In this document: piece after piece, positions 1 through 14,373 of the stretch
Layout of the letters: every line of letters begins with the position of its first letter
Position numbering within the stretch: position 1 is the stretch's first letter
DNA from: Paracoccus albicereus
Lineage (GTDB): Bacteria > Pseudomonadota > Alphaproteobacteria > Rhodobacterales > Rhodobacteraceae
Direction: 5' to 3'
Length of the DNA stretch: 64,000 nucleotides
Assembly (NCBI RefSeq): GCF_024359525.1
Contig: NZ_JAKZEU010000008.1
Span: 1-64,000, forward strand
Program-made: the position numbers and the translations under genes
The notes under the pieces: generated by a model
Database searches by the model: none
Told to the model about the DNA's origin: nothing
What the model saw: the letters and a program-made list of their open reading frames with translations, nothing else

Positions 1-1579
1 CGAGGACCGCCGAGAGCGTCTGCAGAAAGACCGTCTTCCCGTTTGCGCCGGTTCCGTGGAAGAAAAAGAACACCTGCTCGCGTGTCGATCCGGTCAGGCA
101 GTAGCCTGCCATGCGCTGCAGATAGGCTTGCAGGTCCCGATCACCGTCGGTGATCTGATCGAGAAAGTTCATCCAGAGCGGACAGTCGCCGCGGGGGGCT
201 GCGCCGGCGATCTGTGTCACCAACCGGGCCGGACCATGGGCCTGAAGTTCGCCAGTCTCGAGATCGACGAGGCCGGCGGTGGTATTGAGAGCCATCGGAA
301 TGGCGTCCCAGGCATCGACCGATGAGGAGATCGCGGGATCGGCTGCGGCGAGCCGCAGGGTTGCCGAGACGGTCCTGTCGCTGGCGATGCGGCGAGCCAT
401 GGCTGGGGAGTCGGTATCCTTGGCCACTGACCGGCAGACCTGGCGCATGAGCTCGCGCGTGATGTCGCGATCGTCGCGGCGCCAGTGGGTCCCGGTCCAA
501 CTCATCCATCCGCCCAGAGCGCTGCAATGACGCGCTTCTCCGGCATGCCGATCGACAAAACTTGCAGCGATCGCGTCCTCTCTGAAGGAGGGCGCGTCCC
601 GCGCTGCGTCGTCCGGCTTTCGCGTGGGCATCGGCCCATTCTCGCGAATGTCCTTTTGCAGAAGCGCTGTGAACTCACGCTCCAGGCCGGCATCGTCCCA
701 CGGTGGCATGATCAGCGCCGCGTTGTGCTCGATTACGGCCCTCCGGGCGTCATCGAGGCTGACGTGGCCAAGGCGCGCCTGGCGGATCCAGTGACCGATG
801 ACGCGCGACAGCGCTTCGAACCGGGTCAAGTCGTCGAGGCCCCCAGCCAGGACCTTGCGGCTCATGAGCCCCGAGACGGCGGGCTTGCGCTGTCGCGGCT
901 TCACCTCCGGAATGCCAGACAGCGGCGGCATTGCCGCGGCCCGCGCGAGGAGTTCATCAAGTGGGTAGCACCCATGGCCGCGTGCGAGCAAGCGGACCGC
1001 CGTGAGCTTTCCATTCTTGCCGTGGATGCTGCCCGGAACGCGGATCGGCTGGTGCAGGCTGCCGAACGACGCGTCGCCGCCCACCTTCAAGGCCACCATC
1101 TCGCGCAGCGACCGGATCCGCTCGAGATCATCGCCGCGCGCCGGCTCATGCAACCGCCAGTACAGGTGCAGCTTCGCCTCCCCAACGTCGGTCCGTCCGC
1201 CGGAAGCGACCTCGAGGCTCGGCTCGCCCAAGTGCCGACAGAGATAATCGCGGGCGAGCGATATGTCTCCGCTGTCGAGATCAACGAGCAGAACCTGCGT
1301 CGCGATGATGTCCCTGGCGCGCGCCGAGCCGGGCCTGCTGACGATGCCGGGAACGGCATAGATGCCGCGGACCGCTCTTGCCGCATGCTTGGCGATATCC
1401 GGCAACGCAGACGTCAGCTGTGTCACTTCGACAAATTTCGACTGCGGCTTCTGATCCGGGGTTCCGGTCTCCGCCAGCATGCGGATCGGAACGATCCCGG
1501 CCAGACCATCAAACACCACCTCCGTGAAGGCGGTCATCGCGCCGTGATCGATCTCGGATCGGAGGGCTTCCAGGGTCAT
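1..1579 (-). CDS. P4-family phage/plasmid primase-helicase, 3' part beyond window edge
   Basis: The minus strand is open from an ATG at 1579 to the window edge, giving at least 526 residues. The N-terminal half reads like a primase/polymerase region ('VLLVDLDSGD', 'KLHLYWRLHEP'). It is followed by a D5_N-like segment ('LNTTAGLVDLETGEL') and, at about residues 509-516, a Walker A motif GTGANGKT of an SF3 helicase. Proteins with this layout start replication of P4-like satellites, prophages and integrative elements. The start codon overlaps the stop of the AlpA-like gene (ATGA), so the two are translationally coupled. The SF3 Walker B and C-terminal domains must lie outside the window. Family assignment is firm; whether the protein is intact cannot be seen. 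Confidence 0.85.
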   Translation of the reverse strand, partial: MTLEALRSEIDHGAMTAFTEVVFDGLAGIVPIRMLAETGTPDQKPQSKFVEVTQLTSALPDIAKHAARAVRGIYAVPGIVSRPGSARARDIIATQVLLVDLDSGDISLARDYLCRHLGEPSLEVASGGRTDVGEAKLHLYWRLHEPARGDDLERIRSLREMVALKVGGDASFGSLHQPIRVPGSIHGKNGKLTAVRLLARGHGCYPLDELLARAAAMPPLSGIPEVKPRQRKPAVSGLMSRKVLAGGLDDLTRFEALSRVIGHWIRQARLGHVSLDDARRAVIEHNAALIMPPWDDAGLEREFTALLQKDIRENGPMPTRKPDDAARDAPSFREDAIAASFVDRHAGEARHCSALGGWMSWTGTHWRRDDRDITRELMRQVCRSVAKDTDSPAMARRIASDRTVSATLRLAAADPAISSSVDAWDAIPMALNTTAGLVDLETGELQAHGPARLVTQIAGAAPRGDCPLWMNFLDQITDGDRDLQAYLQRMAGYCLTGSTREQVFFFFHGTGANGKTVFLQTLSAVL

Positions 1580-1794
1580 GCCGTCGCCTCGGTCACGCGA
1601 CAGTCTTCCTCGAAGGCGAGAATATCCTCGAGACGGTAGCGGACACGGTCGCCGATCCGCAGCCAGGCGGGGCCGGTCCCCGCCGCCCGACGTCGCTGAA
1701 GGCTGCGCACGGATACGTGCCAACGGGCCGCGAGGGCGCGTTCGGTCAGGATGGGCTCAAGTTTATCGTTCGGCTTAGCGGCAGGGATCGCCAT
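1576..1794 (-). CDS. AlpA/excisionase-like helix-turn-helix protein
   Basis: 72 residues. The segment 'LTERALAARWHVSVRSLQRRRAAGTGPAWLRIGDRVRYRLEDILAFEE' region (residues about 18-63) is the short winged HTH of the MerR-like excisionase/AlpA family, which binds DNA to control excision or integrase expression in P4-like elements. A strong ribosome binding site AAGGAGG sits 7 nt upstream of the ATG. It is the first gene of a two-gene operon with the primase, overlapping it by 4 nt. About 200 bp of non-coding sequence separates it from the QueC-like gene upstream, so it probably has its own promoter there. Confidence 0.75.
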   Translation of the reverse strand: MAIPAAKPNDKLEPILTERALAARWHVSVRSLQRRRAAGTGPAWLRIGDRVRYRLEDILAFEEDCRVTEATA

Positions 1795-1996: not shown

Positions 1997-3877
1997 TCAG
2001 GTCGCGTCCCGTTTGAGAACCCGGATATCCGGATCGATGCGATAGCCACGTCGCCCCTCGCTCTCGATCAAGAGGGGCCGAGCCGGCGGCCTGTCGAACA
2101 GCTGCTGATGGAACTGCGCAAGTTCCTTTCGACACCGGCGAACGTGCTGAGCGACGACCTCTTTGCTGACACTCGCTCGCGTTGCAAGTGTGCCGGTCGG
2201 CACGTAGCGGTGCTCCTCGCGGGAAAGCCCGCGATGACGATCCTCGTCAAATTCCGGCTTGATCATACAGGCAGTACGCGCCGCCGCACCTTCAATACGG
2301 CCGAGACCCCGGACACTGATCAGGAAGCGATCGTCTTCCTCCGAGAAGAAGACCTCAAGCGGGCGGTCCTCGTGAAGAATTAGATCCGGCGCATCGGACG
2401 AATTCTCCATAGGCTGCTGAGGAGCAGGCGCGGTCGCGCGCGGGTCGGGAGCAAGCGCCGTCGCCGCTGGGTCCTCTCCCGCGACCATAAGCCGGATCAG
2501 CGCCCCGTCCGGAAGTTCCTGGCGGGCAAGGTGTTCGGCATTGTCGCGGATGGCTTGTGCCAGCGCATCCCTGACCAGCCTGCCGTGGCGGCGCTGGAGC
2601 TCGAGGATGCGGCGCAAGACCTGCGTCCGACCCTGATCGGGATATCCGCTCGCGATCCGCGTCAGTTCCTGACCGAACGTGCTGAGGAACATGCGATCGT
2701 CGATCGCGGCCAGTCGAACGGCATGGCGGGTCCAGTCGAGCGCCAGGGTCCGCGACCGATCCTTTTCGCGCGACCCGGTCAGTACATCGGTGCCATACAT
2801 GTCGGCGGGATCCTCGTCCGCAAGGCCTGCGGCGAGCATCGCGAAGCGACGATCGAGGCATTGCGAACAGGCGCCGCAATGCGTGTGCAAGGTGTTCTGC
2901 TCGCGGATACTGGTGCAACTCACCGCCTCTCTGATCTGATCGGCGGCGCCATGGTCGGCGATCCGACGCACAACATCGGTCTTGGTCATCCATTCATATG
3001 GGTTCCGGATGGCCGCACCAGCCCCTTCACCGACCAGCATCATGAGATGCTCGAGCTTTCTCAAGGCAAGGGGATGCGTCGTCCGCGTCGCCATGGTGCC
3101 AACCACATGGGGCGAAATCGGGAGGTTATGTCCGATGATCCCGTTCTCGAAGAAACTCTGCCGATCGGCTCCGAACATGCGTGCGACGACCTGACCCAGC
3201 GCCGCGAAGAGAAAGGAGCGTGATCTCTGTGTTGCATCCCGCGCCTCCGTGCCAACCCGCTGTGCCATCACGTGGATCTGCAGCACGCGTCCGGGAAAGC
3301 GATGCTTGAGATACCGGCCGAGGTGTCCCTGACGTGTCGCAGCCTTTTGCGACGAGCGATGTGTGACCAGGACAATGCGGGCGTTCGACGTCGAGAGCGT
3401 CTCAAGCGCGCCGGCGAAGGAGTCGAGCCCGCCCGAGAACAGGATGACCTCGTCCGCCGCGAAGGCATCGCCCTCCGGCTCGAAGGGGAGGAAGGGCTCC
3501 TCCTGGTCAACGGTATCCTGCGCGTGGAACCGAAAACTGACGATGTCGCCTGTGAGAAACGTGATGGCGTCGGTCAGCGCAGCCGCCACCTCCGGGCGGT
3601 TCCAGAAGCCGGGATTACGGACCGGCAGATCGAAGTGGAACTGCCGATGCCAATCCTCTCCCATGTGCGGACGGGTAGGACCCCCTCGCTGCACCTCGCT
3701 ATCGGCTGCGAAGACATAGGCCGCGATGTCGAGCAGATCTTGCAGTCGTGGTTCGATGGGCCGGACAAGCGCCGCCGAAATGCGGTCGGCGCGTAGCCGA
3801 AACGTCGGGGCGGTCCCGTTCAGCCGGATGCGAAGCGGTCCGCGTGCGCGATCAGTTCCCACGACCCCCTCAGGCAT
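1997..3877 (-). CDS. QueC/QatC-like PP-loop protein with C-terminal winged-helix-like extension
   Basis: About 626 residues. Residues 40-70 carry a conserved 'LLDIAAYVFAADSEVQRGG' segment that I associate with QatC-type defence proteins. A PP-loop ATPase motif SGGLDS lies at about 148-153. A CX12CX2CX2C zinc motif at about 321-340 ends in 'HCGACSQCLDRR', as in QueC, the 7-cyano-7-deazaguanine synthase. Residues about 420-626 are extra relative to QueC and end in a winged-helix-like segment ('LATRASVSKEVVAQHVRRCR', then 'GRRGYRIDPDIRVL'). Two in-frame ATGs exist at 3883 and 3877. AAGAGGG touches the first and is 6 nt from the second, so 3877 is preferred. It overlaps the upstream 260-residue gene by a few bases. 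No other queuosine gene is near, so a housekeeping role is unlikely. A defence role is inference from family and island context. Confidence 0.75.
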   Translation of the reverse strand: MPEGVVGTDRARGPLRIRLNGTAPTFRLRADRISAALVRPIEPRLQDLLDIAAYVFAADSEVQRGGPTRPHMGEDWHRQFHFDLPVRNPGFWNRPEVAAALTDAITFLTGDIVSFRFHAQDTVDQEEPFLPFEPEGDAFAADEVILFSGGLDSFAGALETLSTSNARIVLVTHRSSQKAATRQGHLGRYLKHRFPGRVLQIHVMAQRVGTEARDATQRSRSFLFAALGQVVARMFGADRQSFFENGIIGHNLPISPHVVGTMATRTTHPLALRKLEHLMMLVGEGAGAAIRNPYEWMTKTDVVRRIADHGAADQIREAVSCTSIREQNTLHTHCGACSQCLDRRFAMLAAGLADEDPADMYGTDVLTGSREKDRSRTLALDWTRHAVRLAAIDDRMFLSTFGQELTRIASGYPDQGRTQVLRRILELQRRHGRLVRDALAQAIRDNAEHLARQELPDGALIRLMVAGEDPAATALAPDPRATAPAPQQPMENSSDAPDLILHEDRPLEVFFSEEDDRFLISVRGLGRIEGAAARTACMIKPEFDEDRHRGLSREEHRYVPTGTLATRASVSKEVVAQHVRRCRKELAQFHQQLFDRPPARPLLIESEGRRGYRIDPDIRVLKRDAT

Positions 3878-4652
3878 CGGCATCCCTCTTGCGCCGAAGC
3901 TCCTCGGTGATCTTCTTCATCGCTACGGCGGCGAAGGCCGCAGCCTGCGGCGATTCGATCCGCCCGTCCTCATAAAGACGCTTTCCGTACCACCCCGGAG
4001 CAAACTCCTGGATGATCCGTGTTGCCTCCTGGGTGTAGGTCTGCAGCGCGACGTCAAACGCACTGCGGGCGCCGACATCCGGAAGGCGCCGTCCGGTCCC
4101 GGTCTGCATGGCCAGGGTCCGATCGAGCCAGTACGAGAGCGAGTCCGAGAGCAGTCGCCCGAAGAACGCACGCGAGAGGGCCGCGATTCCGTTCGGACGG
4201 GAAAGCCGTTGTGCCTCGATCTGGACGTCTCGGTCGGTTGCCTCGAACAAGCCCGGCAGCGCCGCACCGATCTGGTCGTTGAGTGTGCCGATGAGCGCGC
4301 GTCCCGCGAGTTCTCCGAAGTCGGTTCGGCGGCTGGCGGCGCGCGCGATGTCATCAAGCCGTTCAGAAGCGCCAGCGCAGATCTCGAACAGGTCGGGCGT
4401 CGAGCCTACGGACAGATCGCAATCCCGCAACGCCAGACCGAAGTCATCGCTTCGGGCCGAGAACGGAATCATGAGCAGGAGCCGGACGGCCTCAACGAAC
4501 ACGGGATCATCTGCGGCGCGGGCGAGATCGCCCTCCGCGGCGATCGCGCTGGCGGCAAAGACTGTCTCGTTTGCAGCTTCGCTACCCAGAAGGTCGACCA
4601 CCTGCCGCCACTTCAGCGAACCGGGCAAAACCTGAAGATGGATATGGCCCAT
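3870..4652 (-). CDS. Unrecognised 260-residue partner of the QueC-like protein
   Basis: 260 residues, mostly predicted helical, with no motif I recognise. It contains no cysteine-rich or nuclease signature and no transmembrane segment. The start is secure: AGGAGG lies 7 nt before the ATG. The protein begins Met-Gly-His, so methionine removal would expose an N-terminal glycine. The C-terminal part holds 'EFAPGWYGKRLYEDGRIES' and a charged end 'EELRRKRDADA'. Its stop overlaps the start of the QueC-like gene, so they form one operon and probably act together. It does not look like the QatB sequences I remember, and QatA and QatD are absent nearby. Function unknown. Confidence 0.7.
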   Translation of the reverse strand: MGHIHLQVLPGSLKWRQVVDLLGSEAANETVFAASAIAAEGDLARAADDPVFVEAVRLLLMIPFSARSDDFGLALRDCDLSVGSTPDLFEICAGASERLDDIARAASRRTDFGELAGRALIGTLNDQIGAALPGLFEATDRDVQIEAQRLSRPNGIAALSRAFFGRLLSDSLSYWLDRTLAMQTGTGRRLPDVGARSAFDVALQTYTQEATRIIQEFAPGWYGKRLYEDGRIESPQAAAFAAVAMKKITEELRRKRDADA

Positions 4653-4722
4653 CCCAGGAACCTCCTCACTGCCGGATAGTCTGCGCGACCGAGGTCGGTC
4701 CCGTCAACCGCCGCCAGCAACC

Positions 4723-5126: not shown

Positions 5127-5399
5127 CTACCCGCGAGCCTTGTCCAGCAGGTCCAGCAGTTCGGTGAACTTCGCCCGTTGATCCGCGCGGTTACCGGACG
5201 CCAGCGCGTCCTCGATGCAATGGGCGGCGTGATCGTCGATCACCAGCTTCTCGACGCCCTTCAGCGCGGCGCGGACAGCCGCGATCTGCGTCAGAATGTC
5301 GACGCAGTAGCGATCTTCCTCGACCATCCGCGCTACGCCTCGAACCTGACCTTCCAAGCGCTTCAGCCGTCTTAATGCGTTTTCGCGGTTCTCATGCAT
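5127..5399 (-). CDS. csoR: CsoR-type copper-sensing repressor
   Basis: 90 residues, the usual length of the CsoR/RcnR/FrmR family. It forms a four-helix DNA-binding disc that releases DNA when Cu(I) binds. Cys32, His57 and Cys61 have the same spacing as the C-H-C copper ligands of CsoR. The segment 'RRLKRLEGQVRGVARMVEED' is typical of the first helix. It is divergent from a DUF305 gene, and a G-tract dyad typical of CsoR operators lies at 5477-5493 in the gap. The link to copper is strong from residues and neighbours, although FrmR/RcnR members look similar. Confidence 0.88.
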   Translation of the reverse strand: MHENRENALRRLKRLEGQVRGVARMVEEDRYCVDILTQIAAVRAALKGVEKLVIDDHAAHCIEDALASGNRADQRAKFTELLDLLDKARG

Positions 5400-5470
5400 G
5401 CTGCATCATAAGGAGATTGGGTGGTCGGTTGTCGAGATGAACGTCGCGATACGTTAATCGATCGCAGCAC

Positions 5471-5498
5471 TTGACGATACCCTAATGGGGTATATTTT
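5471..5498 (+). promoter_or_regulatory. CsoR-type operator overlapping a promoter
   Basis: A -35-like TTGACG (5471-5476) and a -10-like TATTTT (5493-5498) are spaced by 16 bp. Between and overlapping them is the dyad ATACCCTAATGGGGTAT (5477-5493), matching the TACCC/GGGTA style of CsoR operators. Repressor bound here would block the promoter of the rightward DUF305 gene. The predicted transcription start falls at or just before the ATG at 5506, so the message may be nearly leaderless. Confidence 0.65.
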
Positions 5499-5505
5499 TA
5501 GAGCG

Positions 5506-6030
5506 ATGAAGCACGATCCTCAATCCCCCGACCCCACCACTCATGGCTCCTATCGCCGTTTCGCCGCGATGATTGCGACGTCCACCGTCGTGATGTTTGG
5601 GCTGATGTATCTCAACACCTACGCGCTCGATCACGTCTACTTCTCGCAAACGCGGATGTGGATGGCGCTCTACATGGGCGCAGCGATGACCGTCATCATG
5701 CTGGCGTTCATGCTGGGCATGTACGGAAATCGGTATCTCAACCTGTCCATTTTTGCCGGCGCCGCGCTGGCCTTTGCAGGCTCGCTCTATCTGGTGCGCT
5801 CGCAGGACACGGTCGGCGACGTCGCATGGATGAAGGCGATGATACCGCATCACTCCATCGCCATTATGACGTCCGAGCGTGCCAACCTGTCCGACCCACG
5901 CGTGCGCGCGCTGGCCGACGCGATCATTGCGGCGCAAGAGGCGGAGATCGCAGAGATGAAGGAATACATCGCCGACATTCAGGCGAACGGCGACGCCCCC
6001 GCGGGAACCCCCCGCGACGAGAAATACTGA
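5506..6030 (+). CDS. Membrane-anchored DUF305 protein
   Basis: About 174 residues with three hydrophobic segments, then a soluble DUF305 domain containing 'WMKAMIPHHSIAIMTSERA'. The paired histidines and methionines of this family are thought to bind metal, and such genes are common in copper islands. An in-frame start at 5485 would place the operator inside the gene, so the ATG at 5506 is preferred. It is the first gene behind the CsoR-type promoter, followed 15 bp later by the glutaredoxin-MauE gene. It is a close paralogue of the gene at 23252-23737. Confidence 0.8.
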   Translation: MKHDPQSPDPTTHGSYRRFAAMIATSTVVMFGLMYLNTYALDHVYFSQTRMWMALYMGAAMTVIMLAFMLGMYGNRYLNLSIFAGAALAFAGSLYLVRSQDTVGDVAWMKAMIPHHSIAIMTSERANLSDPRVRALADAIIAAQEAEIAEMKEYIADIQANGDAPAGTPRDEKY

Positions 6031-6045
6031 TCCCCCGGAGGCCCC

Positions 6046-6846
6046 ATGCCCAAGGACATCCTTGCTGACACCCGCGACGTCGCTGACGTCACCACCGCCC
6101 CCGCCATTGCCGCGATCGGCAAGACCGCCGTTCTCTATCGCATGGCGCTGCCTGATCACCTGTGCCCCTCGGGCCAGAAGGCAAGCTGGCTGCTGAAGTC
6201 CAAGGGCTATCAGGTGGACGACCGCCTGTTCCGCACCCGCGCGGAAGTGGACGCCTTCAAGGCCGAGCACGGCGTCAAGACCACGCCGCAGGTCTGGATC
6301 GAGGGCGAGCGCGTGGGCGGCTACACCGACCTGCGTCAGCGCCTGACCGACTGGGATCCCGACGCCACGACCTACAAGCCGGTGATCTACCTGTTCGCGG
6401 TCGCTGCCGCGACGGCGCTCGCGCTGTCGATCGGTTTTATTGGCGCGATCACCTGGCAGACGCTGGGCTGGTTCATCTCGATCTCGATGATCCTGCTCGG
6501 GATGCAGAAGCTGCGCGACATCGAGAGCTTCTCGACGATGTTTCTGAACTACGACGTTCTTGCGCGCCGTCATGTGCCCTACGCCTATGTGTACCCCTGG
6601 GTCGAGACCGGCGCGGGCGTTCTGATGACCGGCATGCTGCTGCCATGGCTCGCCGCCCCTGCGGCCCTGGTCATCTCGACGATCGGCGCATGGAGCGTGT
6701 TCAAGGCCGTCTACATCGATAAGCGCGAACTGAAATGCGCCTGTGTGGGCGGCGGCTCGAACGTGCCCTTGGGCTTCGTCAGCCTGACCGAGAACCTCGC
6801 CATGATGGGTATGTCGATCGTGATGCTGGTGATATTGCTGACCTGA
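6046..6846 (+). CDS. Glutaredoxin-MauE/DoxX-like membrane fusion protein
   Basis: 266 residues. Residues about 25-105 form a glutaredoxin-like domain with a CPSG active site at Cys40 (monothiol; the second cysteine is Ser) and 'VKTTPQVWIEGERVGGY', the cis-proline/GSH-binding part. Residues about 115-266 form four membrane helices of the MauE/methylamine-utilisation type, with a Cys-Ala-Cys pair near residue 230 ('LKCACVGGG'). The fusion suggests transfer of electrons or thiols across the inner membrane. Lying between two DUF305 genes behind a CsoR operator, it probably acts in copper handling or periplasmic thiol redox. GGAGG precedes the start. Confidence 0.78.
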   Translation: MPKDILADTRDVADVTTAPAIAAIGKTAVLYRMALPDHLCPSGQKASWLLKSKGYQVDDRLFRTRAEVDAFKAEHGVKTTPQVWIEGERVGGYTDLRQRLTDWDPDATTYKPVIYLFAVAAATALALSIGFIGAITWQTLGWFISISMILLGMQKLRDIESFSTMFLNYDVLARRHVPYAYVYPWVETGAGVLMTGMLLPWLAAPAALVISTIGAWSVFKAVYIDKRELKCACVGGGSNVPLGFVSLTENLAMMGMSIVMLVILLT

Positions 6847-6961
6847 CAGGTCACTCCCGCAGTGCATAATCGTGACCCCCGAGGCTGGGGACCTTCGACG
6901 AGGTAGGCACGCTCGTCGGTTGAACCTAGCCTCATTGATCAACCAGACAGGAAGAGAACCT

Positions 6962-7354
6962 ATGACCGGATTGCGAAACTATGCCTTGCGGGCTACCGGC
7001 ATCGGAGTCGCAATGGCGATTTCCGCCGCGTCCGTTGCCGCCCAAAGCGCGTCCGATCACGGCGCAGGTCACGGCGAGATGGCGAGCCATGACACCGGTT
7101 CGGTCTATTCCGCGGCCATGGACACGATGATGCAGAGCATGGACGCGACTGAATTGACCGGCGATCGCGACGCTGACTTTCTGCTGCTGATGATCCCCCA
7201 CCATCAAAGTGCGATCGACATGGCTCAGGCCTTGTTGGAGGATTCCAATGACGCCGAGGTGGCAGCTCTGGCGCAGGCGGTGATCGACACCCAGCAGGCC
7301 GAGATCAAGGACATGAAGGGCATGCTAGCGCGACTAGGGCATCCTATCGACTAG
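6962..7354 (+). CDS. Secreted DUF305 protein
   Basis: 130 residues. A signal peptide (about residues 1-28, 'VAMAISAASVAAQ') is followed by a His/Met-rich linker and a DUF305 domain with 'LLLMIPHHQSAIDMAQALLE' and a second helix pair 'IDTQQAEIKDMKGML'. It is predicted to be a periplasmic metal-binding protein. The start is chosen because AGGAAGAG precedes it and the signal peptide begins there. It is the last gene of the copper cassette; the second inverted-repeat module begins 55 bp downstream. Confidence 0.8.
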   Translation: MTGLRNYALRATGIGVAMAISAASVAAQSASDHGAGHGEMASHDTGSVYSAAMDTMMQSMDATELTGDRDADFLLLMIPHHQSAIDMAQALLEDSNDAEVAALAQAVIDTQQAEIKDMKGMLARLGHPID

Positions 7355-8985: not shown

Positions 8986-10302
8986 ATGGCCGGACAGAAC
9001 ACCATAACCGACAACACCCGTCCCTTCGCAGGAGCCCGCGACCTGACACGCCGCGCGGTCGCCGACCTGATCCCCTACGCCAACAATGCCCGGACACACT
9101 CCGAGGCCCAGGTGGCGGGCCTCGCCGGTTCGATCCGGGAGTTCGGCTTCAACAACCCGGTGCTGGTCGATGGGGCGAACGGCATCATCGCGGGTCACGG
9201 CCGGGTGCTGGCGGCGCATAAGCTTGGACTGGCGGAGGTGCCGGTCATCGAGCTGGCGCATCTCAGCGAGACGCAGAAGCGGGCCTACATCCTGGCCGAC
9301 AATAAGCTGGCCGAACAGGCGGGCTGGGACGCACAGCTGCTGGCGCTGGAGCTCGGCGATCTCGCTGATCTCGACGTGGATCTGACCAGCCTCGGCTTCG
9401 AAGGCGCGGAACTCGACAAGCTGCTCGGTCACGACGCACCCGATCCTCGCGAGGAGGAAACACCGGAGCCGCCTGCCGATCCGGTCTCCCGCCCGGGCGA
9501 TCTTTGGACCCTCGGCTCGCACCGGCTGATCTGTGGAAGCTCGACCGATCGGGACACGGTGACGCGGGTGCTGAACGGCGTGACACCGCATCTCATGGCA
9601 ACCGATCCTCCGTTTGGCGTGAACTACGATCCGGCGTGGCGCAACGACGTGGGCGCCGCAAAGACCAGGCGCACCGGCAAGGTGTTGAACGATGACCGCG
9701 CCGACTGGCGCGAAGCCTGGGCGCTGTTTCCCGGCGAGGTGGCCTATGTCTGGCACGGCGCTCTCCACGCCACCACGGTGGCCGAGAGCCTCGAGGCGAC
9801 GGGCTTTTCGATCCGCTCCCAGATCATCTGGGCCAAGGAACGGCTGGTGCTCTCCCGCGGGCACTATCACTGGCAGCACGAGCCCTGCTGGTACGCGGTC
9901 CGCGGCACCGGGCACTGGTCGGGCGATCGCAAGCAATCGACGCTGTGGACGATCCCGAGCCGTGACCAGGACGCGAAAACGGTGCACGGCACGCAAAAGC
10001 CAGTGGAGTGCATGCGCCGGCCGATGCTGAACAACTCAAGCCCGGGGCAGGCGGTCTATGAGCCCTTCTGCGGATCGGGGTCGAGCATCATCGCCGCCGA
10101 GACCACGGGGCGGCATTGCTACGCGGTCGAGCTCGATCCGGCCTATGTCGATGTGATCGTGCTGCGCTGGCAGGTCTTCACCGGCAAGAAGGCGGTGCTG
10201 GAGGGCGACGGCCGCACCTTCGGGACGATCGCCGCCGAACGGCAGGGCACGCGCATCGAGCTGGCACCTTCCGAGGCCGCACCGCTCAAGGCAGCCTCAT
10301 GA
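8986..10302 (+). CDS. ParB-like/DNA methyltransferase fusion, phage type
   Basis: 438 residues. The N-terminal ParB/Srx-like domain (about 20-115) contains 'NARTHSEAQVAGLAGSIREF' and 'GHGRVLAAHKLG'. The C-terminal half is a DNA N6-adenine/N4-cytosine methyltransferase with catalytic DPPF near residue 206 and the SAM-binding FCGSGSS near 361, the beta-class order. Such fusions are common in Rhodobacteraceae prophages just ahead of the packaging genes and have no cognate nuclease, so self-protection or regulation is more likely than restriction. The stop overlaps the next start (ATGA). Confidence 0.88.
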   Translation: MAGQNTITDNTRPFAGARDLTRRAVADLIPYANNARTHSEAQVAGLAGSIREFGFNNPVLVDGANGIIAGHGRVLAAHKLGLAEVPVIELAHLSETQKRAYILADNKLAEQAGWDAQLLALELGDLADLDVDLTSLGFEGAELDKLLGHDAPDPREEETPEPPADPVSRPGDLWTLGSHRLICGSSTDRDTVTRVLNGVTPHLMATDPPFGVNYDPAWRNDVGAAKTRRTGKVLNDDRADWREAWALFPGEVAYVWHGALHATTVAESLEATGFSIRSQIIWAKERLVLSRGHYHWQHEPCWYAVRGTGHWSGDRKQSTLWTIPSRDQDAKTVHGTQKPVECMRRPMLNNSSPGQAVYEPFCGSGSSIIAAETTGRHCYAVELDPAYVDVIVLRWQVFTGKKAVLEGDGRTFGTIAAERQGTRIELAPSEAAPLKAAS

Positions 10303-10773: not shown

Positions 10774-11238
10774 ATGAGAGGCCGCAAGCCGACACCGACC
10801 CGCCTTAAGCTCGTCGCAGGCAACCCCGGCAAGCGGCCGATCAATGGCGCCGAGCCAGAGCCCGCCGCGGATCTGCCGACCTGTCCGGCTCATCTCAACC
10901 CCTCTGCCAAGGCCGAGTGGAAGCGGCTGGCTCGCGATCTGAACCGCATCGGTCTCCTGACCATGGTCGACCGCGCGGCGCTCGCGGCCTACTGCCAGTC
11001 CTACGGCCGCTGGGTCGAGGCGGAACGGAAGCTGAAGGAGACGCCGGTTCTCTTGAAGATGCCCTCGGGCTACATCCAGCATTCCCCTTGGCTCACCATT
11101 GCCAACAAGGAACGCGAGCTGATGGCGCGCTACATGGCCGAACTCGGCTTGACCCCATCTTCAAGATCGCGGTTGGCGGTCGACGTCTCGGCCACCGATC
11201 CCGCGGTCGCGGCCGTCTGGGCGCAGTTCGACATGTGA
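10774..11238 (+). CDS. P27-family phage terminase small subunit
   Basis: 154 residues starting 'MRGRKPTPTRLKLVAGNPGK', the standard opening of P27-type small terminases. It is followed by 'CPAHLNPSAKAEWKRLARDL' and 'SGYIQHSPWLTIANKERELM'. These proteins recognise phage DNA and recruit the large terminase for packaging. GAGGAG precedes the ATG by about 10 nt. A paralogue follows after 7 bp. No large terminase is found in the window. Confidence 0.88.
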   Translation: MRGRKPTPTRLKLVAGNPGKRPINGAEPEPAADLPTCPAHLNPSAKAEWKRLARDLNRIGLLTMVDRAALAAYCQSYGRWVEAERKLKETPVLLKMPSGYIQHSPWLTIANKERELMARYMAELGLTPSSRSRLAVDVSATDPAVAAVWAQFDM

Positions 11239-11245
11239 GGCCACG

Positions 11246-11773
11246 ATGAGAACCGGACGCAAACCCATCCCTCGCAAGCCGACCCTGACGAAGACCCGGC
11301 TGAACGCGCTGCCGCGCTGCCCAAGCCATCTTTCCCATGTGGCTCAGAAGGAATGGCGCCGGTTGGCCACGCCGCTGCATGAAGCGGGGATCCTGACACT
11401 GGCCGACCGCTCTGCACTCGCGGCCTATTGTCAGGCTTACGGTCGTTGGGCGGAGGCCGAAACCAAGCTCGCCGAGACGCCCGCGCTGCTGAAAACGCCG
11501 AGCGGCTACGTCCAGCAATCGCCGTGGCTCTCGGTTGCCAACAAGCAGATGGAGCTGATGGGTCGCTTCATGGCGGAGTTGGGTCTGACACCGGTTGCCC
11601 GGGCCCGGCTCTCGATCGAGTTGCCGGAGACCGTGACGTTCCCGACGATGATCCAGCTCGTGCCTTACGAGGGCAAGACCCGCACCGAGGCGAAGGACGA
11701 GGGCCCTCGGGACCGTTCAGGCGAAGGCGACACAAAGCCCGACAGGATATCGGGCAACCGGCCGATCAATTGA
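11246..11773 (+). CDS. Second P27-family terminase small subunit
   Basis: 175 residues, clearly a paralogue of the preceding gene: it shares 'LADRSALAAYCQAYGRWAEAE' and 'SGYVQQSPWLSVANKQMELM'. It has a longer hydrophilic C-terminal tail ending 'RISGNRPIN'. Tandem small terminases are unusual; one may be for a different packaging partner or be a decaying duplicate. Downstream, where the large terminase should be, a recombinase gene begins. Confidence 0.82.
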   Translation: MRTGRKPIPRKPTLTKTRLNALPRCPSHLSHVAQKEWRRLATPLHEAGILTLADRSALAAYCQAYGRWAEAETKLAETPALLKTPSGYVQQSPWLSVANKQMELMGRFMAELGLTPVARARLSIELPETVTFPTMIQLVPYEGKTRTEAKDEGPRDRSGEGDTKPDRISGNRPIN

Positions 11774-11845: not shown

Positions 11846-12544
11846 ATGGCAGGATCAGGACAACGCTACATCGCCTACGAGCGGGTCTCGACCGCGCGGC
11901 AGGGACGGTCCGGGCTCGGGCTCGAGGCGCAGCGCCGTGCGATCGACGAGTTCCTCCAGTCACGCAGTGCCACCCTCTCAGGCCGCTTCACCGAGGTCGA
12001 AAGCGGCAGGCGCAACGACCGACCTGAACTGGCAGCGGCTTTGACCCAGGCACGCCTGACCGGCGCGACGCTGCTCATCGCCAAGCTCGACAGGCTGTCA
12101 CGCAACGCGGCTTTCCTTCTGCAGCTCCGCGACAGCGGTGTTCGCTTCCTGGCCTGCGACATGCCAGAGGCGAATGACCTGACCATCGGGATCATGGCGC
12201 TGGTGGCCCAGCAGGAGCGCGAGGCGATCTCCCGGCGCACGAAGGAGGCGCTGGCAGCCGCAAAGGCGCGTGGGGTGAGGCTCGGCAATCCCAACGGCGC
12301 TACGGCGCTCAGGCGCGGCGGTGATGACGGACGGGCGCTCCGCGCCGCAGTCTCGCGCAATGCCGACGCACATGCGGCTTCGCTGGAGACTGTCCTCGCC
12401 GATCTGGAGGCGACAGGCATCCGCAGCCTCCGTGAGATCGCCGCAGCGTTGAATGCGCGCGGCATCCTGACGCGGCGCGGGGGTCGCTGGCATGTGTCGA
12501 CGGTCCGGAACCTGAAAGGCAAGTTGGCGGAGCAAAAGGTCTAG
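11846..12544 (+). CDS. Serine recombinase (resolvase/invertase family)
   Basis: 232 residues. The catalytic domain has 'YIAYERVSTARQG' with the nucleophilic serine at about residue 15, 'LLIAKLDRLSRN', and the dimer/E-helix region 'VAQQEREAISRRTKEALAAA'. The C-terminal part ends in a recombinase HTH ('SLREIAAALNARGILTRRGG'). It would catalyse site-specific inversion, resolution or integration. A frameshifted C-terminal relic of a similar gene lies at 14640-14864, so the segment between could be cargo moved by such enzymes. Confidence 0.88.
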   Translation: MAGSGQRYIAYERVSTARQGRSGLGLEAQRRAIDEFLQSRSATLSGRFTEVESGRRNDRPELAAALTQARLTGATLLIAKLDRLSRNAAFLLQLRDSGVRFLACDMPEANDLTIGIMALVAQQEREAISRRTKEALAAAKARGVRLGNPNGATALRRGGDDGRALRAAVSRNADAHAASLETVLADLEATGIRSLREIAAALNARGILTRRGGRWHVSTVRNLKGKLAEQKV

Positions 12545-13548: not shown

Positions 13549-14373
13549 TTACTGCTGCTCCGTTTGGGCTCCGGAGTTGGGGCGCGCCTTCCCGAGATCC
13601 GGCTTCTGGCCGAGGGGTTCGACCTTCTCACGAACGGAAAACTCGCTGCGTCCATCCAACGACGGCCCTGATGTCCAGCGACCCTCGGGTGTCGGTTCAT
13701 CAAGGGACGTGTTGAGGAAGTAATACGAGTGTTCGGTCGCCTCGTGTGCTTCCGGCGTCGAGTTCGGGATCGGCAAAGCATTCTGCATGCCACCCAACTC
13801 TTCGATCACGGCGAGCCACTGTTGCTGATGCATGGTGTCGCGCGCAATCAGGAACGAAAGCATGTCCTTCATTCCCGCATCGTCAGTCATGTTATAAAGG
13901 CGCGAGGCCAGAACGCGACCCCCGGCCTCTGCCGTGACATTGGCAAGCATGTCCGCACCGATGTTACCGGTCGCGTAAACATGGCTCATGTCGAAGGGGA
14001 CACCGTTCGCATTGACCGGCATCGCCGAGAGACCCGATGACAGGATGTGCCGGGGGTTGGCGCCGCCCATGATGGCGTGGACGACCGGATCCTGTGCGGC
14101 CTCTTCTTGTGCTGTTAGTGGCGCATTCTCAAGGTTGAGAGCCACCGCATGGCCCAAGAACTCGATGTGGCTCAACTCCTCGGTCGCGGTCATCATGAGC
14201 ATGTCGCGATATTTGCTGTCACCGCGCGCGCCCATGGCTTGGAAGAAATACTGCATGGCTACGCGAATTTCACCCTCGATACCGCCAATAGCCTGCTGCA
14301 AGTACTTGGCGAATTGGGGGTCGGGGCGATCAACACGAACTTTGTACTGAAGTTTGCTGGAATGATGGAACAT
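13549..14373 (-). CDS. Manganese catalase
   Basis: 274 residues, the family's usual size. The dimanganese ligands of the known enzymes are all in place: Glu35, Glu66, His69 ('ATEELSHIEF'), Glu149 and His182 ('DTMHQQQW'). It breaks down hydrogen peroxide in the cytoplasm without heme. The C-terminal tail is hydrophilic and variable. A ribosome binding site AGGAGA lies upstream. It is read against its neighbours and is probably a single transcription unit. Confidence 0.93.
   Translation of the reverse strand: MFHHSSKLQYKVRVDRPDPQFAKYLQQAIGGIEGEIRVAMQYFFQAMGARGDSKYRDMLMMTATEELSHIEFLGHAVALNLENAPLTAQEEAAQDPVVHAIMGGANPRHILSSGLSAMPVNANGVPFDMSHVYATGNIGADMLANVTAEAGGRVLASRLYNMTDDAGMKDMLSFLIARDTMHQQQWLAVIEELGGMQNALPIPNSTPEAHEATEHSYYFLNTSLDEPTPEGRWTSGPSLDGRSEFSVREKVEPLGQKPDLGKARPNSGAQTEQQ

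Follow-up and report, generated by a model that had tools for sequence, protein, structure and literature searches.

What does a QueC/QatC-like enzyme do in a two-gene pair with a partner protein that no family model places, beside a phage-type primase? The question is raised by a 64,000-nucleotide stretch of Paracoccus albicereus DNA (contig NZ_JAKZEU010000008.1, positions 1 to 64,000), here called the window, which opens contig C19 of a 3.66-Mb genome. Our reading, to which we give a probability of roughly 0.6, is that the pair is a compact two-gene QatB-QatC branch on satellite- or prophage-like elements, in which the enzyme would modify the N-terminal glycine of its partner and the pair would block competitors. 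Both genes lie on the minus strand. The partner gene (3870..4652, 260 amino acids) has a Shine-Dalgarno-like AGGAGG, read directly, 8 bases ahead of its ATG (4661..4666, minus strand). The enzyme gene lies downstream (1997..3883, 628 amino acids as listed), and the two open reading frames (ORFs) overlap by 14 bp as listed. In the genome's second copy of the pair (locus L072, overlap 426-433) and in many homologues, the enzyme starts at the second ATG with an 8-bp overlap. This ATG, at 3877 in the window, is the likelier candidate start and would give 626 amino acids.

An earlier inspection of the letters and their ORFs, which we call the sequence-only reading, had described an intact QueC/QatC-like enzyme with SGGLDS and CX12CX2CX2C sites, and our analysis bore this out for both ORFs and the motifs. 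By alignment, SGGLDS, the ATP pyrophosphate loop (PP-loop), covers enzyme residues 150-155 (3419..3436, minus strand), and the putative zinc cysteines C323, C336, C339 and C342 (2858..2917, minus strand) form CX12CX2CX2C. All four cysteines are invariant in a 30-row alignment, and S150 is nearly invariant. The enzyme matched PF06508 (QueC, Pfam) at 28.3 bits, NF041925 (QatC, NCBIfam) at 207.4 bits over residues 47-363 and the PADLOC QatC model at 187 bits, while its 22.3 bits to canonical QueC (TIGR00364) did not reach the cut-off of 150.3. It also matched the solved QatC chains of PDB 9vlk and 9zee. Residue equivalences come from aligning the enzyme with 9zee, which is numbered consistently with the residues cited in the available part of PMC13279940. 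S150, D154 and S155 align on S156, D160 and S161 of PaQatC, R222 and F226 on R233 and F237, and the four cysteines on the published QatC zinc cysteines. In a TRTTHP stretch (residues 266-271; 3071..3088, minus strand), T266 and T268 align on QatC T278 and T280 and replace the YxD of QueC. These QatC threonines stand where QueC and Cap9 have their deazaguanine-reading Tyr and Asp, and mutating them abolishes defence, according to the same portion of PMC13279940. The QatB-contacting loop, N253-H270 in our enzyme, aligns to 9zee without gaps. The enzyme has the QatC residue set of SGGxDS, the T278/T280 equivalents and the four zinc cysteines.

A tree was built from 43 enzyme cores, with hand-chosen rows labelled by partner and midpoint rooting. 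Window-type enzymes formed their own clade (support 99/97) beside ten Qat rows (85/99), not within the QatC of qatABCD loci, and a third branch, the MSDGP type compared below, was supported at 100/100. The row from a Leptospira plasmid is a long branch. Only two distant Listeria records in the phage collection matched the enzyme. Two of the four PF06508 matches in the source genome were read as probably unrelated (L003, MnmA-like; L004, PAPS-reductase type).

The partner, which the sequence-only reading could not place, still belongs to no curated family, as the window protein matched nothing in Pfam or PADLOC and NCBIfam gave only a sub-cut-off match (DidA, 16.8 bits with a cut-off of 100) that we dismissed as chance. 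The QatB model NF041924 matched neither the window partner nor the Leptospira partner. None of 120 listed partner relatives has a Pfam annotation, and PF28083 is assigned to 119 of the 120 QatB relatives listed. Profile-profile comparison nevertheless linked the partner core to QatB, with hhalign scores of 43.6 and 42.0. The deeper comparison (42.0), whose partner profile Bd includes partners from our viral and genome scans, aligned partner residues 60-256 with QatB 119-284 over 166 columns, reaching the C-terminus. Sixty column shuffles scored at most 19.7, two reversals 15.7 and 17.5, and 29 decoy neighbour families at most 21.2. From these profiles, the partner appears to be a remote relative of QatB with a homologous core.

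Constraint on the partner is most striking at its N-terminus. There were 334 relatives at E<=1e-3, and 116 of 120 among the matches listed were 258-261 amino acids long. Conservation was counted over 49 representatives below 65% identity; loci from the viral scan, which used an MGH-motif pattern, and from the genome scan, in which one of three patterns did, were kept out of this count because of that pattern. G2, H3, L6, P10, Arg178 and Lys247 are invariant (49/49), M1 is present in 48 and W15 in 47. The start is MGH in 134 of 136 sequences, the others being one MGP and one LGH. The motif MGH..L...P....W (residues 1-15; 4608..4652, minus strand) is the proposed substrate tail, and such extreme constraint is what would be expected if the N-terminal glycine were modified. 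The QatB N-terminus is laid out alike, with MGTS and an invariant proline (P16); as far as the accessible sections of PMC13279940 report, QatB Gly2 and tail residues 16-22 are essential and a G2D mutant loses defence.

The tight coupling of the two genes, also noted in the sequence-only reading, recurred in the genome-contig and viral-contig loci. The enzyme was directly downstream of the partner in 23/23 genome-contig loci. Viral contigs gave 92 partner relatives, of which 80 were kept, and an enzyme ORF was directly downstream on the same strand in 80/80. Among the partner proteins of these 80 loci, 70 are distinct, and three of the 70 recur in the genome set (the partner proteins of L129, L130 and L131 are those of L045, L034 and L039). 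Some loci are repeats (L055 of L041, L056 of L052 and L111 of L034). Genome loci L035, L037, L050 and L053 have at least one gene of the pair broken or incomplete. In the viral set, the L193 enzyme is short (377 amino acids), contig ends truncate L153 and L165, the L187 partner ORF lacks its N-terminal part, and the L180 enzyme ORF is present (756 amino acids, 426.6 bits).

Among the record titles are Rhodobacteraceae, a Betaproteobacterium, a Desulfatitalea metagenome-assembled genome (MAG), and Planctomycetota and Phycisphaerales MAGs. The Leptospira plasmid copy was found via the enzyme; a tblastn search of 72,556 plasmid records returned none with the window partner and one, the Leptospira plasmid, with a viral relative as the query. 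Within the Rhodobacteraceae, the partner is patchy (19/295 genomes), and the enzyme profile matched in 22/295. Six family genomes with an enzyme match only have Qat-like loci (G076, G189, G255 and G294) or the MSDGP type (G036 and G272). Fifteen of the 19 partner-positive genomes have an adjacent same-strand enzyme, including G007 and one copy in the source genome (G000) at contig ends, G035 with a broken enzyme and G246 with both genes broken. In G191 the enzyme is displaced and inverted, in G093 only an enzyme remnant is left, and G064 and G293 have partners truncated to 209 amino acids and no enzyme. Pairing is thus nearly obligate. Rather than sitting in core genomes without the partner, enzymes of the branch have a scattered distribution and almost always accompany it; more distant QatC-type enzymes can lack an MGH partner and are found with QatB or another partner.

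The second copy in the source genome is split by contig ends (G000:C2:1-1208 and G000:C8:1-1451; L072 and L073). The partners of the two copies are 93% identical and the enzymes 96%. The ratio of nonsynonymous to synonymous polymorphism (pN/pS) between them is about 0.12 for the partner and for the enzyme (0.119 for the latter), which indicates that both are under purifying selection. Together with joint recurrence in about 100 related loci, this ratio argues that the pair is not a chance arrangement.

The primase neighbour and mobile setting held up as well. The D5/P4-type primase gene (2..1723, minus strand), cut by the contig start, scored 98 bits to D5_N and 93.7 bits to TIGR01613, below the cut-off of 108.7, and L073 also has a primase of this family. 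Flanks were compared across 44 locus files, consisting of the first 16 kb of the window and L031-L073, with two repeats counted. The primase family (F2) and a large serine recombinase each occurred in 20 of the 44, and the merged family F4 (ParB-N/methylase and Terminase_4 small subunit) in 19. A large-serine-recombinase family, of which one member was checked with Pfam, was near the pair in 52/80 viral loci. Mini-islands with a tyrosine integrase form a second setting (L058-L061 and L070), and four of the five contain an HTH_17 gene. The term "P4-like" suits the primase but does not cover the range of elements. In eight viral contigs (L131, L146, L162, L164, L170, L172, L173 and L176), the viral sequence stops at the enzyme stop codon; the position of the pair at the called provirus edge may reflect provirus trimming. 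Genes of family F14 lie near the pair, or what remains of it, in L058, L061, L064 and L068, as do genes of F25 in all of these but L068. F14 looks MiaB/MtaB-type and F25 looks like dapF, which suggests a shared insertion site.

QatA and QatD, by comparison, were missing from these surroundings. Profiles of each, built from ten proteins and searched within the fetched flanks, had no match in the 44 genome-locus files or the 80 viral loci. The sequence-only reading had reported QatA, QatB and QatD absent; this stands for QatA and QatD, and for QatB it is true of the family models only. In the sections of PMC13279940 available, QatB and QatC form the minimal Qat unit, QatBC is sufficient to protect E. 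coli from some phages, and QatC activity on QatB could not be reconstituted. Given this minimal unit, finding QatBC as two genes is less of a surprise than the sequence-only reading implied.

The enzymes of the branch differ from QatC in length, being mostly ~600-720 amino acids, whereas the QatC ORFs of Qat loci are mostly 421-449 (range, 358-514). In the window enzyme, the extension past the QueC core (2000..2758, minus strand) ends in GYR(I/L)xP. This GYRxxP stretch resembles winged-helix regulators, although helix-turn-helix (HTH) matches are weak (HTH_11 is below its cut-off) and PDB matches, to PhoB, TcpP and others, have E values of 0.04-1. The Planctomycetota and Desulfatitalea enzymes have C-terminal ends unlike that of the window enzyme, and the copy on the Leptospira noguchii plasmid (L076 4848-6713) has a DpnII-MboI restriction endonuclease domain there (E 1.5e-10). 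The branch thus shows an enzyme C-terminal domain varying by lineage, from winged-helix-like to a nuclease, and this variable domain may be a modular sensor or effector.

Which acid might such an enzyme use? The sequence-only reading had reported other queuosine genes absent. In the source genome, there was no QueC at cut-off and no QueD or QueE match, while tRNA-guanine transglycosylase (TGT) was present. Of the 35 genomes in which the partner was found, 29 are without an above-cut-off QueC and without convincing QueD plus QueE, the known route to 7-carboxy-7-deazaguanine (CDG). QueC over cut-off was found in six of the 35 (G647, G683, G684, G687, G688 and G690), and only those six also have QueD of at least 75 bits plus a QueE-model match. 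The QueE model is a one-subfamily model whose cut-off only G687 passes, and it still matched E. coli and B. subtilis; the G647 match is 20.5 bits only but adjoins its QueC and QueD. Weak QueD-like matches of 31-41 bits occur in G004, G017 and G106, a weak QueE-model match occurs in G064, and G208 has neither QueD nor QueE but does have a QueC-like protein at 105 bits. Sub-cut-off QueC-like proteins of 91-105 bits were seen in G208 (G208:C22:475388-475966), G010, G034 and G051; none of the four had a QueD match at the thresholds used, and QueE, searched in G208 only, gave none there. Among 26 genomes with intact-looking pairs, QueC is present in six and not in 20. TGT was found in 37/37 genomes searched, 35 of them with the partner.

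This absence matches what is seen in the family at large (above-cut-off QueC in 19/198 genomes; QueD in 13, or 16 at E<=1e-15), which argues for no special association with the pair. Relatives in three hosts lacking the CDG route (G000, G677 and G686) have pN/pS of 0.12-0.41, and selection seems to maintain the pair where the known route is absent. In nine canonical Qat genomes sampled, QueC was present in seven; the two without are both Rhodobacteraceae-family genomes. Because TRT occupies the reading site and most sampled hosts have no known pathway, the acid joined to the partner is probably not host-made CDG. CDG supplied by a phage is a possible substrate. Roseophages R26L, R5C and Pan1 carry queD, queE and queC (PMC11806900), and folE, queD, queE, queC and queF are reported from roseophages (PMC11806900 and PMC11981692), in the available portions of these papers.

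Taken together, we propose that the diverged-QatB partner would bind the QatC-like enzyme and that, after removal of Met, partner Gly2 would enter the active site. The enzyme would then spend ATP to activate a carboxylic acid and couple it with the amine of the glycine. In its modified form, the pair may block competing phages or other elements, with the enzyme C-terminal domain, winged-helix-like here, possibly serving as the sensor or effector. Several observations weigh against this reading. Defence and modification by the branch are argued from sequence comparison. The QatC score stays under the curated NF041925 cut-off of 280. The partner has MGH, P10 and W15 instead of the QatB MGTS motif, and it probably lacks the long QatB tail, a disordered stretch of 30-90 residues. 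The QatB match lies above all nulls, yet it is not overwhelming: 60 block-shuffled profiles, with 15-column pieces kept, reached up to 38.3 against QatB, QatB itself scored up to 30.1 with one of the same 29 decoy families, and the narrower A1 alignment gave 26.5 with a probability of only 6. The positive control for the QatA and QatD profiles found 11 each of 22 other loci, mostly the loci from which the profiles came. The missing CDG route would count here too if CDG had to be made by the host.

Could the pair instead serve the mobile element itself? Its recurrence beside the primase and the large serine recombinase, whose family is in most of the viral loci, and the HTH-like enzyme C-terminus would fit a role in excision regulation, replication control or superinfection exclusion among similar elements, rather than in general defence, with the winged-helix-like domain binding element DNA. 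We consider this unlikely, as the pair also occurs in other settings, such as the tyrosine-integrase mini-islands and the Leptospira plasmid, where the C-terminus is a restriction endonuclease domain, and as G093 keeps the F4 and F8 element genes beside a pair with an enzyme remnant only. An addiction or toxin-antitoxin-like pair, in which partner or enzyme is toxic and restrained by its neighbour, could account for an overlapping two-gene operon on mobile elements and for the 19 family genomes, where an enzyme-less partner is truncated or lies beside a remnant or displaced enzyme. However, one of the genes encodes a large enzyme whose QatC active site is conserved, and the other encodes a probable remote QatB relative, which makes this highly improbable. 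To our knowledge, QatBC has not been reported as an addiction pair, which also counts against it.

A closer competitor in chemistry is Cap9-like deazaguanylation of the partner by the enzyme, with CDG that is salvaged or comes from an unrecognised route. The sequence-only reading had offered the partner N-terminus as such a substrate; the MGH start is in keeping with the substrate part, and the lack of a known CDG pathway in most sampled hosts counts against the deazaguanine. The shared fold and ATP loop and an N-terminal Gly as in the cyclic oligonucleotide-based antiphage signaling system (CBASS; PMC11996544 and PMC13279940, in the parts available) favour CDG, and TGT in every genome searched suggests that salvaged deazaguanines may be used. 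Opposed to this are TRT where the CDG-reading Tyr and Asp would be, the joint lack of QueC, QueD and QueE in most partner genomes, weak matches aside, and QatBC crystals that were grown with CDG and showed none (PMC13279940, same sections). We therefore regard CDG as a doubtful substrate. A bolder version is that the substrate is the alarm: the enzyme would stay idle in CDG-less hosts until phage queD, queE and queC supplied the precursor, whereupon the partner Gly would be tagged and defence switched on. If so, the phage's own DNA-modification chemistry would trigger defence. A milder form supposes a different, ubiquitous acid, and QatC-type enzymes would then perform a new N-terminal protein modification; even jointly, we hold these two versions to be a long shot. 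Under the two-gene QatB-QatC reading that we prefer, the branch is a smaller natural version of Qat in many hosts apparently unable to make the suspected substrate, and this makes the QatC substrate question testable by genetics.

The remaining genes around the pair are context. An HTH_17 small regulator (1576..1794, minus strand; Pfam match) lies on its primase side. On the other side, between the pair and the phage-like genes (5127-7354), are a metal-sensitive repressor, two DUF305 genes and a MauE-domain gene. The plus strand then carries a ParB-N/N6-N4 methylase gene (8986..10302, ParB_N match below its cut-off), two Terminase_4 small-subunit genes (10774..11238 and 11246..11773) and a serine recombinase/resolvase (11846..12544), the last three by Pfam match. 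A manganese catalase gene lies at 13549-14373.

How does the branch compare with known systems? With canonical QueC it shares the PP-loop and zinc site, but the window enzyme falls far below the TIGR00364 cut-off and the source genome has no QueD or QueE match. Like Cap9 and the CD-NTase of type IV CBASS (PMC11996544, available portion), it has an enzyme of QueC fold and a partner that probably accepts the modification at its N-terminal glycine. In contrast to Cap9, it has TRT at the place of the deazaguanine-reading Y115 and D117 and a far longer enzyme, and the partner matches no CD-NTase model. A further QueC-like system, which has no name yet and which we call the MSDGP type, was seen in L078 (4285-7988), L112, L113, L114, L125 and L126. 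Its partner of ~190 residues starts MSDGP(H/F/Y), with Trp15 in 6/6 and LP at positions 9-10 in three, and its enzyme of ~458 residues has SDGxDS in 5/6 and YxDYR where the branch has TRTTHP. An XRE/IrrE-peptidase gene lies downstream in L078 (Pfam), and 400-residue genes take the same place in L113 and L125. The branch resembles the MSDGP type in its short upstream partner, conserved N-terminus and Trp15, with a weak N-terminal profile similarity (28.7), and differs from it in Gly2 rather than Ser2, in SGGLDS and TRTTHP, and in falling outside the separate MSDGP clade. In the accessible parts of the open-access literature, subscription journals being outside the scope, no paper on the MGH partner or the two-gene branch was found.

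The closest likeness is to QatB-QatC of qatABCD (PDB 9vlk/9vll and 9zee/9zef). Shared features are the active-site residues, the zinc site, the gapless QatB-contacting loop, the order of partner then enzyme, an upstream partner with a Met-Gly start followed by a conserved Pro and Trp, and a partner core that appears remotely homologous to QatB. The branch is unlike qatABCD in having no QatA or QatD found nearby, in its separate enzyme clade and sub-cut-off NF041925 score, in MGH with Pro10/Trp15 versus MGTS with Pro16/Trp18, and in its longer enzyme with a variable C-terminal domain. In the available text of PMC13329287, which repeats the carboxydeazaguanylation proposal, qatA and qatD adjoin only about a third of the QatC cluster. 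The branch may account for some of the QatC-cluster genes, roughly two thirds of the total, that stand without these neighbours.

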